From Nitrosomonas sp. Nm33 (GTDB lineage: Bacteria > Pseudomonadota > Gammaproteobacteria > Burkholderiales > Nitrosomonadaceae): a DNA stretch of 64,000 nt. The stretch's first letter is position 1. Each line of letters starts with the position of its first letter. The position numbers and the translations under genes were made by a program. The notes under the pieces were generated by a model. It did not search any database, had not been told where the DNA came from, and saw only the letters and a program-made list of their open reading frames with translations. Location of the stretch: NCBI RefSeq assembly GCF_900107265.1, contig NZ_FNPJ01000002.1, positions 1-64,000 on the forward strand, read 5' to 3'. Shown piece by piece: positions 2,484 to 63,873 of this stretch.

Positions 2484-3183
2484 AAAAAAATAAGCTCGAT
2501 GAGTGACGGATTATCTGGTTTGGTTACAATCCGTGTTATAAGCAAATAATGGGCTAAAGAATGGTAATTCCATTTCTAAATAAAACATGATGCGAGGGCG
2601 AGCTGCAGGCAGTATAAGTAATACGACAAGGAGAAATCGACAAAATCAGGTTTGATTTAGAAATGGAACAAATTATTTTCGGATGGTAAGAGTTGATATA
2701 CCCTAAATGAAAAAGTTAGAGGTATGGTTGCATCTAAGCTATACAATTTTTATTCGATATATAACGAAGTGTGGCTGCAAGAAAGAAAAAGCAAGCCGCC
2801 CAGCTTTAAATGCTTTGTATAGCTAAATTCAAAAAAATCATAATTATATTGAACAGGATAGGATAATGATGTTTTTGAATTTCCAGTCAGCGCATTTAAA
2901 ACACTCTATCCGTGGATAAGGCTGTGATAACTGCTCTATATCGGTGAGAGATAATAATTATTTCGGTCGCTTAGAAAAGATGCTAATGCTTTTATTATTT
3001 TGACCAATAAACAAGATTCGAGAATGCGAATTTCATACTCCACCTTAACTGGTGAGTAATTAACATTGTTCCCGAGTTATTTTTTAATCAATTTTTAAAG
3101 CAATCCCATCTGTTTTGACTTATCTGCTCACCTAATTGCAGAATTTCATACAGGCAGATACTGGGCAGCCCGATTATCTTGCT
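2484..3183. other. 700-bp intergenic region with one MITE copy
   Basis: No convincing gene. The first third holds repeat copy A (2568-2668). The rest is AT-rich; the only frames are short, for example about 40 codons on the plus strand near 2707, without a convincing ribosome site or recognisable protein. No tRNA or structured RNA was recognised. Confidence 0.6.
2568..2668 (+). repeat. MITE-like element, copy A
   Basis: A 101-bp non-coding element bounded by near-perfect 18-bp inverted repeats (left end TTCCATTTCTAAATAAAA, right end its complement with one or two changes). It shares its whole length with copies B (16867), C (26249) and D (63531, opposite orientation), including the internal GCAGnCAGTATAA and AAGGAGAA blocks. 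It is flanked by TAA on the left and CAA on the right, a degraded 3-bp target duplication. It is the most diverged of the four and so may be the oldest. Confidence 0.8.
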
Positions 3184-10133: not shown

Positions 10134-10750
10134 AAGGATTGGTGGTCCCGCTGGATCGCGCGAACGTGGATACGGATGCTATTATCCCTAAACAATTCCT
10201 GAAGTCGATCAAGCGTTCAGGTTTTGGTCAGTACTTATTTGATGAATGGCGCTATCTTGATCACGGTGAGCCGGGAATGGATGTATCGCAGCGTAAAATA
10301 AACCCTGATTTTGTGCTTAATCAACCTCGCTATCAGGGAGCAGAAATATTGATTGCACGTGATAATTTTGGTTGTGGTTCAAGTCGCGAGCATGCACCCT
10401 GGGCACTTCAGGATTACGGTTTTCAGGTAATTATTGCACCGAGTTTCGCCGATATTTTTTTTAACAACTGCTTCAAAATAGGATTATTACCTATTGTGCT
10501 CGATTCAAATGTGGTGAATAGGCTTATTAATGAAGTGATAGCTATCAGTGGTTATTGTTTAGCCGTGAATCTTTCTGCCCAGACAGTGACGACACCGACT
10601 AATGAAGCCTATGGCTTTGATATTGATCCATTTAGAAAACATTGTTTAATTAATGGCTTGGATGAAATCGGCTTAACTTTACAGCATGCTGATAAAATCA
10701 AGCAGTTTGAGGCAAAGCGACGGAAAGAGCAGCCTTGGTTATTCGCTTGA
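10112..10750 (+). CDS. leuD: 3-isopropylmalate dehydratase small subunit
   Basis: LeuD, 212 residues, the swivelling-domain subunit that completes the active site of isopropylmalate isomerase with LeuC. The family signature [13 protein letters not shown] is at residues 87-99 and the N-terminal [19 protein letters not shown] segment is canonical. The frame is open far upstream (to 9989, through the lipoprotein gene in another frame), but homology sets the start at MKKFDYCKG, 10112. It lies 30 bp upstream of leuB and should be one transcript with it. Confidence 0.95.
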
Positions 10751-16006: not shown

Positions 16007-16822
16007 GTGAGAATAGCTTTAGTTCTAGAATATAGTGGGGAGCGGTATCATGGTTGGCAAAACCAGCCTGCTTGCATCTCAATTCAAAGTGAGCTGGAGA
16101 CTGCATTATCTAAAATTGCTAATTGTAAAGTTGGAGTCGTTGCAGCAGGTCGAACAGACGCGGGTGTTCATGCACTATACCAAGTGATTCATTTTGAAAC
16201 ACCCACACGAAGACCTATGAATGCATGGGTGAGAGGGGTTAATGCACTATTACCTGATGATATTGCCGTATTGTGGGCCTCAGAAGTGGGTGAAGCGTTT
16301 CATGCACGTTATTGTGCTATCGAACGGCGTTATCTTTATTGCTTGCTGAATCATCCTGTTCGGCCTGGGGTATCTCAAAGGAAAGTAGGATGGTTTCATA
16401 AGCCGCTAGAGCTTGAAAAAATGCAACAGGCGGCGGCCATGTTGTTGGGTGAGCATGATTTTAGCGCTTTTCGTACTGCTGAGTGTCAGGCGAAAAATCC
16501 GGTACGAAACTTAACCATGTTAGAGATCACGCAATATGGCCATTTTTTTATCTTCGAGTTCCGTGCTAATGGCTTTTTACATCATATGGTGCGTAATATT
16601 GTCGGTAGCTTAGTATATATCGGTCATGGTAAATATCTTCCTGGATGGATGCAGCTGTTGTTACAAAATCGTGATCGAACCCTTGCTGCGCCAACATTTT
16701 CTCCTCATGGGTTATACTTGGCTGGGATTAGCTATGATGCTAAATGGAATTTGCCTCCTTTCAATCAATCTCCTCTTGCAACTATTATGCTGAGTCCAAA
16801 TAGGTCTCTGGTAGAAGTATAG
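16007..16822 (+). CDS. truA: tRNA pseudouridine(38-40) synthase
   Basis: TruA, 271 residues, isomerises uridines 38-40 in the anticodon arm of many tRNAs. The catalytic aspartate is Asp51 in AAGRTDAGVHAL; the N-terminal RIALVLEYSGERYHGWQNQ and C-terminal FLHHMVRNIVGSLVYIG are canonical. It starts with GTG at 16007, chosen because the family begins right at this RIAL strand; no good ribosome site is visible before it, so expression may be low. It lies between fimV and trpF, the usual betaproteobacterial order. Confidence 0.93.
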   Translation: MRIALVLEYSGERYHGWQNQPACISIQSELETALSKIANCKVGVVAAGRTDAGVHALYQVIHFETPTRRPMNAWVRGVNALLPDDIAVLWASEVGEAFHARYCAIERRYLYCLLNHPVRPGVSQRKVGWFHKPLELEKMQQAAAMLLGEHDFSAFRTAECQAKNPVRNLTMLEITQYGHFFIFEFRANGFLHHMVRNIVGSLVYIGHGKYLPGWMQLLLQNRDRTLAAPTFSPHGLYLAGISYDAKWNLPPFNQSPLATIMLSPNRSLVEV

Positions 16823-16866
16823 AATCTGGTTGAAATCAAGGTTGATCAAATCATATAGAGAGGTGA

Positions 16867-16970
16867 TTTCATTTCCAAATCAAACATGACGCGAAGGCGA
16901 GCCGCAGACAGTATAAAAAATAATACGGCAAGGAGAAGCCGACAAAGTCAAGTTTGATTTAGAAATGGAA
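16867..16970 (+). repeat. MITE-like element, copy B
   Basis: A 104-bp copy of the family (see copy A), ending in TTTGATTTAGAAATGGAA. It is flanked by TGA and TAA, consistent with a TNA-type 3-bp target duplication that has since changed. An internal CGGC/GCCG pair around AAGGAGAA could form a small hairpin. It lies between truA and trpF, ending 44 bp before the trpF start, and may affect read-through into the trp genes. Confidence 0.85.
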
Positions 16971-17014
16971 TAAGAAGTGGATTATTTATATGTTTAAAAT
17001 GGAGTGAGTATTTT

Positions 17015-17641
17015 GTGCCGATCCGTGTAAAGATTTGTGGTATAACACGCGTTGAAGATGCGCTGGTAGCGGCACAGCAGGGTGCAGACGCTATTGGATT
17101 TGTTTTCTGGCGTCAAAGTGCGCGTTTTATTTCTCCTACTCAGGCACGTGAAATCGTATTGCGCTTGCCGCCTTTTGTGAATGTAGTGGGTGTTTATGTT
17201 GATCCTTCTCCAGAATGGGTGGAAGAGACTTCCATCACAGCTGGGCTGAATTTGCTCCAGTTTCATGGGGAGGAGACGCCCGAATTTTGTGGTCAATTTA
17301 TCTTGCCTTATATTAAAGCTTTGCGTGTCAGGAAAGAGATGGATTTGTTACAATACGGAAAGCTTTACGAAAATGCCAAAGGATTGTTATTGGATACCTA
17401 TACAGCAGGGATGCCAGGTGGTACTGGGCAAGTATTTGACTGGAATTTGATTCCAACAGATTTTCCTTTACCACTCGTACTTTCAGGCGGCCTTGGTCCT
17501 GATAATGTGGTGAATGCGATTAGACAAGTTCGGCCATGGGCCGTAGATGTATCCAGTGGGGTAGAAGTCGCAAAGGGTATTAAGGACGTGAACAAAATTT
17601 CTGCTTTTATGCAAGGAGTCAAGAATTGTGAAGATTTATGA
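17015..17641 (+). CDS. trpF: Phosphoribosylanthranilate isomerase
   Basis: TrpF, 208 residues, a TIM barrel that isomerises N-(5-phosphoribosyl)anthranilate in tryptophan synthesis. The catalytic Cys8 sits in [33 protein letters not shown] and the phosphate-binding [10 protein letters not shown] segment follow. The start is GTG at 17015, with GGAG about ten bases upstream. It overlaps trpB by 14 bp, so the two are translationally linked. Confidence 0.95.
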
Positions 17642-26234: not shown

Positions 26235-26248
26235 TTTAAAAAATATTA

Positions 26249-26349
26249 TCCCGTTTCCAAATCAAAGATGACGCGAAGGCGGGCCGCAGACAGTATAAAT
26301 AATACGGCAAGGAGAAGTCGACAAAGTCAGGTTTGATTTAGAAATGGAA
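26249..26349 (+). repeat. MITE-like element, copy C
   Basis: A 101-bp copy, left end TCCCGTTTCCAAATCAAA, right end TTTGATTTAGAAATGGAA. It is flanked by TTA on both sides (26246-26248 and 26350-26352), a perfect 3-bp target duplication. The right-hand TTA is the complement of the TAA stop codon of ppiB. It fills almost the whole space between the convergent metZ and ppiB genes and may serve as their transcript boundary. Confidence 0.9.
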
Positions 26350-26841
26350 TTAGCAGTTTTCAACTTTTATAATCACTACATCTTCTAATGGCACATTCTG
26401 GTGTCCAGCAGAATTGCCTGTTTTTACTTTCTTAATTTTATCAACGACGTCCTTTCCTTCTACTACTTTACCAAAGACACAATAACCAAAACCCTGAGCA
26501 GTAGGCGCAGTATAGTTGAGGAAATTATTATCGTTAACGTTAATAAAAAACTGAGATGTGGCTGAATGCACATCGGATGTCCTTGCCATGGCAATGGTAT
26601 AGGTATCATTTTTAAGACCATTGGCAGCTTCATTCTTGATGGGAGCAAGTGTCTTTTTTTGTTTCATGCCCGGTTCGTAGCCACCACCTTGGATCATAAA
26701 TCCGTCTATGACGCGATGAAATAATGTATTGTCATAATGCCCATTATTAACATAATCCAGGAAATTTTGGGTGGTAATAGGTGCTTTGTCACTATCGAGC
26801 TCTATGCCGATGACGCCATAATTAGTATGTAGTTTTATCAT
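26350..26841 (-). CDS. ppiB: Peptidyl-prolyl cis-trans isomerase, cytoplasmic cyclophilin
   Basis: A 163-residue cyclophilin without signal peptide, catalysing proline isomerisation during folding. Active-site motifs are [15 protein letters not shown] (including the catalytic arginine), a [17 protein letters not shown] block and the [11 protein letters not shown] region. It is close in size and sequence to E. coli PpiB. It lies 13 bp downstream of a second, exported cyclophilin on the same strand, evidently an old tandem duplication with division of labour by compartment. Confidence 0.92.
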
Positions 26842-63479: not shown

Positions 63480-63530
63480 AGCTCAGTCCGAACGGCGCTT
63501 TGGTAAGCGTTATACAAGAATGATCTATTA

Positions 63531-63626
63531 TTCCATTTCTAAATCAAACCTGACTTTGTCGGCTTTTCCGCCGTATTCATACTGTCTGCGGCTTGCCTTC
63601 GCGTCATATTTGATTTGGAAATGGAA
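63531..63626 (-). repeat. MITE-like element, copy D
   Basis: A 96-bp copy in the opposite orientation to A-C, with near-perfect ends (TTCCATTTCTAAATCAAA and its complement with one change) and perfect TTA target duplications on both sides (63528-63530 and 63627-63629). The middle is slightly shorter than in the other copies. Confidence 0.9.
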
Positions 63627-63873
63627 TTAGGTTCATTATATTTATACTTTTTAGCCCCTTTTTGAAGCACCCCGAGGTAAATAAAATCAGAACCTGCTTC
63701 AGCTTCATAGCAGCGCTATCTCACTCGATCAATCTTTGTTGCTTATTTCTTACCAACGCCAAGTGTCAGGCGTTAAGTATTTATAGGTATTTTATTAATC
63801 AGTGTATCTTGTGATAAGCTATTGAGCATCAAAGATTAACAAATAGAGCATTTATTTTCCTAATTTACAGGTG

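Follow-up and report, generated by a model that had tools for sequence, protein, structure and literature searches.

A ~101-bp MITE of Nitrosomonas sp. Nm33 and its folding core shared with the Correia elements of Neisseria

A repeat of ~101 bp with 18-bp inverted ends occurs four times in a 64,000-nt stretch of the Nitrosomonas sp. Nm33 genome (NZ_FNPJ01000002.1:1-64000; hereafter the window, meaning the whole stretch analysed). The repeat is a genuine MITE, since it is multi-copy, has inverted ends, is flanked by 3-bp target duplications, and is matched in relatives by an empty site that is short of exactly the element plus one TTA. We consider it likely that this MITE is moved in trans at TNA targets, that it represents one burst within a superfamily of small elements with a folding core, the Correia elements of Neisseria included, and that the fold itself is probably under selection. 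A transposase acting in trans would recognise the inverted ends, and insertion at TNA would duplicate these 3 bp. A burst would then have brought the repeat to ~120 copies in Nm33, and probably to more in three relatives. The core would belong to a superfamily of small, mostly betaproteobacterial elements, such that the Correia elements and the Nm33 repeat may be seen as two bursts of one superfamily with changeable ends. When transcribed, an element would form a long hairpin that is likely handled by RNase III, by analogy with what is reported for Correia elements. It is probably the folded single strand (RNA or DNA) that is selected, given that arm sequences and targets vary across the superfamily but the core persists and the arms still pair.

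Copies, target sites and empty sites in Nm33

A scan of the window with the covariance model R1 (E ≤ 0.01) matched just four copies. These had been placed at 2568, 16867, 26249 and 63531 (reverse) in a first-pass annotation of the window, and all were found as stated. The features are as follows (strand in brackets where one applies):

2568..2668 (+): MITE copy A, full length, 101 bp; inverted ends at 2568-2585 and 2651-2668
2565..2567 and 2669-2671: target flanks of copy A, TAA on the left and CAA on the right, degraded
16867..16970 (+): MITE copy B, 104 bp, R1 match
16007-16822 and 17015-17641: neighbours of copy B, a tRNA pseudouridine synthase gene (PF01416) and a phosphoribosylanthranilate isomerase gene (PF00697), respectively
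16864..16866 and 16971-16973: target flanks of copy B, TGA on the left and TAA on the right, degraded
26249..26349 (+): MITE copy C, full length, 101 bp, R1 match
26246..26248 and 26350..26352: target duplication of copy C, TTA on the left and TTA on the right, exact
26350-26841 (-): cyclophilin-type isomerase gene (PF00160); the right-hand TTA of copy C reads as its TAA stop codon
26269..26329 (+): core that folds in copy C, akin to the Correia core; located by reference to the consensus, whose length the copy shares
26293..26305 (+): central hairpin GTAT..ATAC of the core of copy C; the stem in relatives is GTAC/GTAC or GTGC/GCAC
63531..63626 (-): MITE copy D, 96 bp, R1 match
63528..63530 and 63627-63629: target duplication of copy D, TTA and TTA, exact

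Allowing up to three mismatches, the end pattern TTCCATTTCTAAATCAAA matches at 10 places in the window, against 0.23 expected, and 8 of the 10 are the ends of the four copies. Across the whole Nm33 genome the 18-base end gives 240 matches at the same tolerance versus 6 for the reversed control pattern, from which we estimate ~120 copies of the family. The 18-bp inverted ends proposed earlier are borne out by these matches in window and genome alike, and the expectation of many further copies proved right once the genome search that had been asked for was run. Chance or artefact is rejected as an explanation by the end counts, compared with expectation and with the reversed control, and by the target duplications.

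From 76 Nm33 pieces picked for holding matches (663,723 bases with overlaps, ~627,000 distinct) we extracted 93 full-length copies, which have 93 different flanks, as well as 14 fragments. The family consensus is TTCCATTTCCAAATCAAAcATGACgCgAagGCGAGCCGCAGACAGTATAAATAATACGGCAAGGaGAAGCCGACAAAGTCAGGTTTGATTTAGAAATGGAA, and the family ends are TTCCATTTCYAAATCAAA. A solitary inverted end with identical flanks is present at two places in Nm33 (L317 and L321; G000:C114:4189-4210 and 10603-10624) that lie 6.4 kb apart, indicating a duplicated stretch. A promoter and terminator scan around copy B returned two promoter-like sites and one terminator-like site, barely above shuffled sequences.

Exact 3-bp direct repeats flank 57 of the 93 full-length copies (TAA 30, TTA 26, TCA 1), and exact 4-bp direct repeats flank none of the 93. 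T.A is found on both sides in 78 of 93 copies, the commonest unequal flank pairs being TTA/TAA (6) and TCA/TAA (5), and the base before the target is C in 48 of 93. The perfect TTA duplications described for copies C and D and the degraded TNA duplications described for A and B are read as claimed. The 3-bp duplication inferred from them holds, but the target is TNA and thus wider than the TTA type that had been named. Judged with a simple ORF caller, 84 of the 93 copies fall between ORFs, 7 are at the ends of pieces and 2 are within an ORF; the ORFs make up 81% of the sample, which gives a binomial p of ~4e-57 for 2 of 86 copies inside. The window copies had been said to sit in intergenic DNA only, and for the genome at large this is mostly so. 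Some insertions fall at stop codons, for example the one marked by the right TTA of copy C.

Empty sites were searched at five Nm33 sites (of 9 prepared), whose flanks were joined with one target copy and compared with 34 of the 84 genus relatives. At site L094:4425 a base-level alignment shows three relatives (L284, L285, L288) without the element plus one TTA, with 1-2 substitutions beside the junction. The same site is occupied in another relative (G002), as seen from two matches that overlap by 3 query bases and are separated by 101 bases on the genome. The first-pass annotation had staked its reading on empty sites that differ by exactly the element plus one TTA, and at this one site, read base by base, they do. 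Copy C is absent from L286 and L287, in which the adjoining intergenic bases differ and the exact junction is unreadable. The spread within the genus is patchy: 22 of 85 genomes matched, Nm33 included, and 63 are without a match. Three relatives hold 354 to 415 first-look candidates each, which are not counted as copies. In sum, the classification as a MITE is supported by copy number, inverted ends, the 3-bp duplication and the empty sites in relatives.

Ends, targets and the search for a transposase

The search for a parent transposase covered a single family, PF01609, and part of its matches were read. The 24 PF01609 matches in Nm33 (24 loci, several cut by contig ends) include none that is flanked by family ends on both sides; one locus (L148) has a single family end with 2 mismatches. 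In the MITE-rich relatives G002 and G003, with 101 and 78 PF01609 matches, respectively, 30 loci were checked and none is flanked by family ends. Ends that are not followed by the MITE core occur at 38 places in 12 genomes, and among the 30 that were read no end pair encloses a transposase. The altered-base places among those 30 are mostly MITEs or MITE remnants, plus the locus L320 and the solitary end at L317/L321. In viral contigs an inward pair of ends was found in 8 of 47 loci (L541, L543, L544, L552, L553, L569, L574, L575); at L574, whose ends are the same as those of L553, five ORFs were judged by eye and none is transposase-like. That no autonomous element with the family ends was found in the loci checked counts against the reading outlined above.

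Two of these loci hold a second MITE with the same ends. At L320 (1501-1598; G003:C71) it has 98 bp, a TAA duplication and an unrelated AT-rich core; at L544 (3589-3686; viral contig) a MITE like that at L320, also with an unrelated core, has TTA on both sides. The family ends, and not the core, therefore appear sufficient for mobility, since both elements share the ends and a TNA target and carry an unrelated core. For the same reason the core seems unneeded for mobility and could have been exchanged.

Targets in other genera were assessed with a strict rule, which requires identical 3-mers beside arms whose 5 outermost bases match exactly and whose identity over 14 is 70% or more. For the named genomes the count comprises 107 of 114 matches after removal of near-duplicates. 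A 3-bp duplication is present in 33 of the 107, and all 33 are TNA (TCA 17, TTA 9, TAA 4, TGA 3), with the ends TTCCA (17), TACGG (10), TGCGG (3), TTCCG (2) and TACGA (1); 74 of the 107 are without one. The same rule with 4 bases returns 4 named matches, and with 2 bases 50 of 107, of which 42 are AT, self-complementary and indistinguishable from the arm. The Nm33 sample under the strict rule yields 9 TNA of 21. The targets of other branches differ, which also counts against the preferred reading: TNA is found in 1 of 19 matches of genome G181 (a copy with a TTCC-like arm) and in 0 of 17 of genome G428, and the part of PMC2649163 available to us gives TA or CA for Correia elements.

At two G181 sites (L279, L274) two sister genomes are without the whole hairpin, the arms too; gain or loss thus involved arms and core jointly. 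The sister alignments at L275, L277 and L281 are too poor to read; this second site comparison took 7 of 10 prepared sites. Insertion of the core into the loop of pre-existing terminators is unsupported at L279 and L274, as the sisters are without arms there.

A folding core shared across genera

A distant-homology search of 72,556 plasmid records with the repeat matched 7 records. Two N. gonorrhoeae records (~2.17 Mb) each contain 40 or more matching places (90.2% identity over 41 nt, query 30-70, E 3e-6); a P. aeruginosa plasmid (76.6%, query 4-78) and Cupriavidus metallidurans are among the rest. The gonococcal match that was fetched is a Correia element, each end being about one base off the ends printed in the accessible part of PMC5039591. 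Its local alignment with the Nm33 repeat scores 76, compared to a maximum of 35 in 1000 shuffles, and is colinear over query 5-92, reaching the inner arms. The first reading of the family as a MITE is thus right as far as it goes, but it missed that the core is the Correia core and that of folding repeats found throughout the order.

With a 67-nt core query, 73 of 399 genomes of the order matched (E ≤ 0.001), corresponding to 39 of 158 genera, Nm33's genus included. Across 369 genomes of the class, the model R1 had matches in 5 (E ≤ 1e-4), of which two, Nm33 among them, belong to the order; the class-wide scan used stricter filters and a different genome draw than the order-wide core query. 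In a pattern scan of named genomes at least 118 stretches matched. Among the 80 listed of these, nearly all belong to betaproteobacteria or to unassigned Burkholderiales/Proteobacteria bins, the odd ones being a Desulfobulbus bin and a Pantoea record. The listed genera include Acidovorax, Polaromonas, Azonexus, Sulfuritalea, Uliginosibacterium, Pseudoduganella and Roseateles, all of which we take to be betaproteobacteria, and the core is also present in Rhodoferax. Eight genomes for the sampling of copies were picked for many candidates or good matches, and their copy numbers are not typical. The repeat is unmatched in the phage collection; Rfam has no family in the window at the gathering threshold, and not one of the 6 Rfam matches obtained from 14 loci (E ≤ 1) extends over the core.

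Several individual loci deserve mention. Rows of matches at ~110 to 117-bp spacing (G287:C11:56550-57057 and G838:C41:121861-122170) suggest tandem arrays. On the P. aeruginosa IncP plasmid NZ_CP017294.1 the element (L163, 2997-3100) lies between a metallophosphoesterase and a NAD kinase gene and has the central stem GCGCTG/CAGCGC. At L180 the element (1478-1581) has its left arm overlapped by a Mn riboswitch match (1348-1527, E 1.3e-11), and at L192 the element is located between two TPP riboswitches on opposite strands, one of the TPP matches touching its edge.

Core and ends may also have separate histories, an IS-derived MITE with TTCC ends having gained a Correia-type core by recombination. 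The MITEs at L320 and L544, with the same ends around an unrelated core, would fit such an exchange, as would the many genomes that carry the same core with unrelated ends. We nevertheless regard it as unlikely: the gonococcal Correia alignment is colinear over query 5-92 and extends into the inner arms, and TTCC ends and core are found together in other genera, so the combination is not confined to Nm33's genus. Common descent of the Nm33 repeat with the Correia elements is the reading we favour.

The conservation of the fold was evaluated on sets of aligned elements. Alignment A1 consists of 28 of 39 extracted diverse elements, after near-duplicates, four Neisseria-type copies, and L164, L184, L185 and L191 (weak or no arms) were dropped. 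The arms are largely unrelated between genomes, yet in every element the left one is complementary to the right; farther in, paired changes are also seen in the stem adjoining the loops and in the central hairpin. The covariation score is 0.562 versus 0.200 for shuffled and at most 0.175 for slid alignments, and 184 cells have two-sided changes versus 58.7 after shuffling. The number of pairs with two-sided changes (25 of 32 versus a shuffled mean of 20.6) was reached by 5 of 500 shuffles and is a weak measure; it is the scores and cell counts, and not the bare pair count, that carry the case for covariation.

The further alignments A2, A3 and A4 were built by fitting to the model, a procedure that favours the pairs it contains. 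In A2, from the single genome G428, most arms resemble one another, and the covariation is 0.419 versus 0.147 shuffled. In A3 (G181; 20 matches, one of just 32 nt) 97.9% of the cells are paired, the covariation is 0.742 versus 0.174, and 26 of 32 pairs have two-sided changes versus 19.7 shuffled; the identity between copies has a median of 40 to 45% in the arms (range 15 to 85%) and is 84% in the central core. For A4 (83 distinct rows from named genomes) the corresponding values are 94.3% of the cells, a score of 0.630 versus 0.146, and 27 of 32 pairs versus 23.3. The inner stems constitute the cleaner evidence for a fold, because arms sharing a transposase must match anyway; of the 11 pairs in helices 3 to 5, two-sided changes affect 5 in A1 and 6 in A3. 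A model-free comparison of duplex energies for 114 pattern matches gives a median of -36.0 for own arms versus -15.2 for swapped arms, and 43 of the 114 lie beyond the 1% point of the swapped-arm energies, a set that includes related arms; the arm analysis drew on 80 of the at least 118 loci. Within the Nm33 burst 93.9% of the cells are paired (shuffled mean 93.3%, maximum 93.8%) and 28 double changes are kept (mean 14.6, maximum 25 in 300 shuffles). Compensation within this burst is weak, as expected of young copies.

A conserved fold might also mean that the elements are mainly 3'-end structures, either a terminator or an RNase III site, kept for the host, with mobility being secondary. The covariation inside one genome (G181) is in line with this, as are the arms of that genome, which have an A-tract and a T-tract around a GC stem. 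Moreover, at 39 sites of G428 and G181 (L244-L281) the 3' end of a gene is found within 20 bp of the right arm in 19 cases and of the left arm in 4. The preference is not seen in Nm33, where gene 3' ends within 40 bp show the opposite lean (left arm 23, right arm 12, p 0.09). Gaps with the Nm33 repeat do favour convergent over divergent gene pairs (22:11 versus 46:64 in gaps without it; Fisher p 0.017), but the ORF caller is crude and the background gaps are unmatched for length. Given also that sites are patchy and empty in relatives, a primarily host-serving RNA appears quite unlikely. Transposition of a single-strand hairpin, REP/RAYT or attC-like and with the fold as its substrate, would account for the near-perfect pairing of arms whose sequences vary from copy to copy within a genome, but it is highly improbable and is disfavoured for the TNA branch, as exact TNA duplications in 57 of 93 Nm33 copies and in 33 named-genome copies point to a staggered double-strand cut and, to our knowledge, REP/RAYT and attC events leave no such 3-bp duplication. 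It may hold for the G181 branch, in which 18 of 19 matches are without a 3-bp duplication.

Returning to a mobile element whose folded strand is probably selected, we tentatively suggest that the Correia elements, the Nm33 repeat and the short repeats of dozens of genera may make up a single ancient superfamily, whose conserved part is the folded single strand (RNA or DNA hairpin) and whose ends change, or are rewritten, to use different transposases; this would be a bacterial parallel to SINEs. The folding core shared across the order, together with clear TNA duplications outside Neisseria, provides comparative material for finding the transposase and for testing the fold. The covariance model R1 finds these repeats even where the arm sequences are unrelated.

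Comparison with known repeat families

A 3-bp TNA target duplication is typical of an IS5-family (TNA) group. The MITEs of this group resemble the Nm33 repeat in that duplication and differ in that no transposase bearing the ends of the Nm33 repeat was found in the loci checked. The IS5-type target given in the first-pass annotation hence stands as far as the TNA duplication is concerned, whereas the full-length IS with the same ends, which it had proposed to look for, was not found at the PF01609 loci checked; the IS5 link, drawn from the target duplication, is an unproven lead. REP/RAYT and REPIN elements are palindromic, intergenic and present in many copies. The Nm33 repeat is like them in all three respects and unlike them in its TNA duplication and fixed ends.

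The Beta-proteobacterial repeat element (BRE; Hot et al. 2011) is described as ~90 bp long, usually intergenic and present in many copies, and the accessible portion of the text lists it for Bordetella, Polaromonas, Acidovorax, Rhodoferax and others, with tandem arrays in Bordetella (PMC3110155). Size, intergenic habit, many copies and an overlap in taxa (Polaromonas, Acidovorax, Rhodoferax) are shared with the repeats considered here. In contrast, that portion of the description has no inverted ends, target duplication or covariation, and it cites NEMIS merely as a known small repeat (PMC3110155). BRE may be part of the same group; the two are likened by description, as the same portion of the text prints no sequence (PMC3110155).

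The Correia elements (CREE, NEMIS) are treated as a feature of Neisseria in the excerpts at hand (PMC2649163, PMC5039591). Among the open-licence papers surveyed, we came across nothing that connects Correia elements to repeats found beyond Neisseria; searches of such papers by the letters of the core returned none on a repeat, and those on Nitrosomonas and small repeats none about such a repeat, as judged by title and abstract. The mechanism that mobilises Correia elements is given as undetermined in the excerpt of PMC2649163, which also reports effects of these elements (promoters, IHF, RNase III binding); for the Nm33 repeat these effects are leads to a possible function and not results. 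Both are small non-coding elements with inverted ends, one Correia length class being 104-108 bp according to the same excerpt (PMC2649163), and they have the core in common (query 30-70 at 90.2%, within a colinear alignment). The ends are tatagtggattaa... for Correia elements, as printed in the accessible part of PMC5039591, and TTCCATTTC... for the Nm33 repeat, which does not have the 26-bp Correia ends TATAGTGGATTAA... The Correia insertion site is TA or CA in the excerpted text (PMC2649163), as opposed to TNA for the Nm33 repeat. Because ends and target differ, the Nm33 repeat is not a Correia element, although it shares the Correia core.
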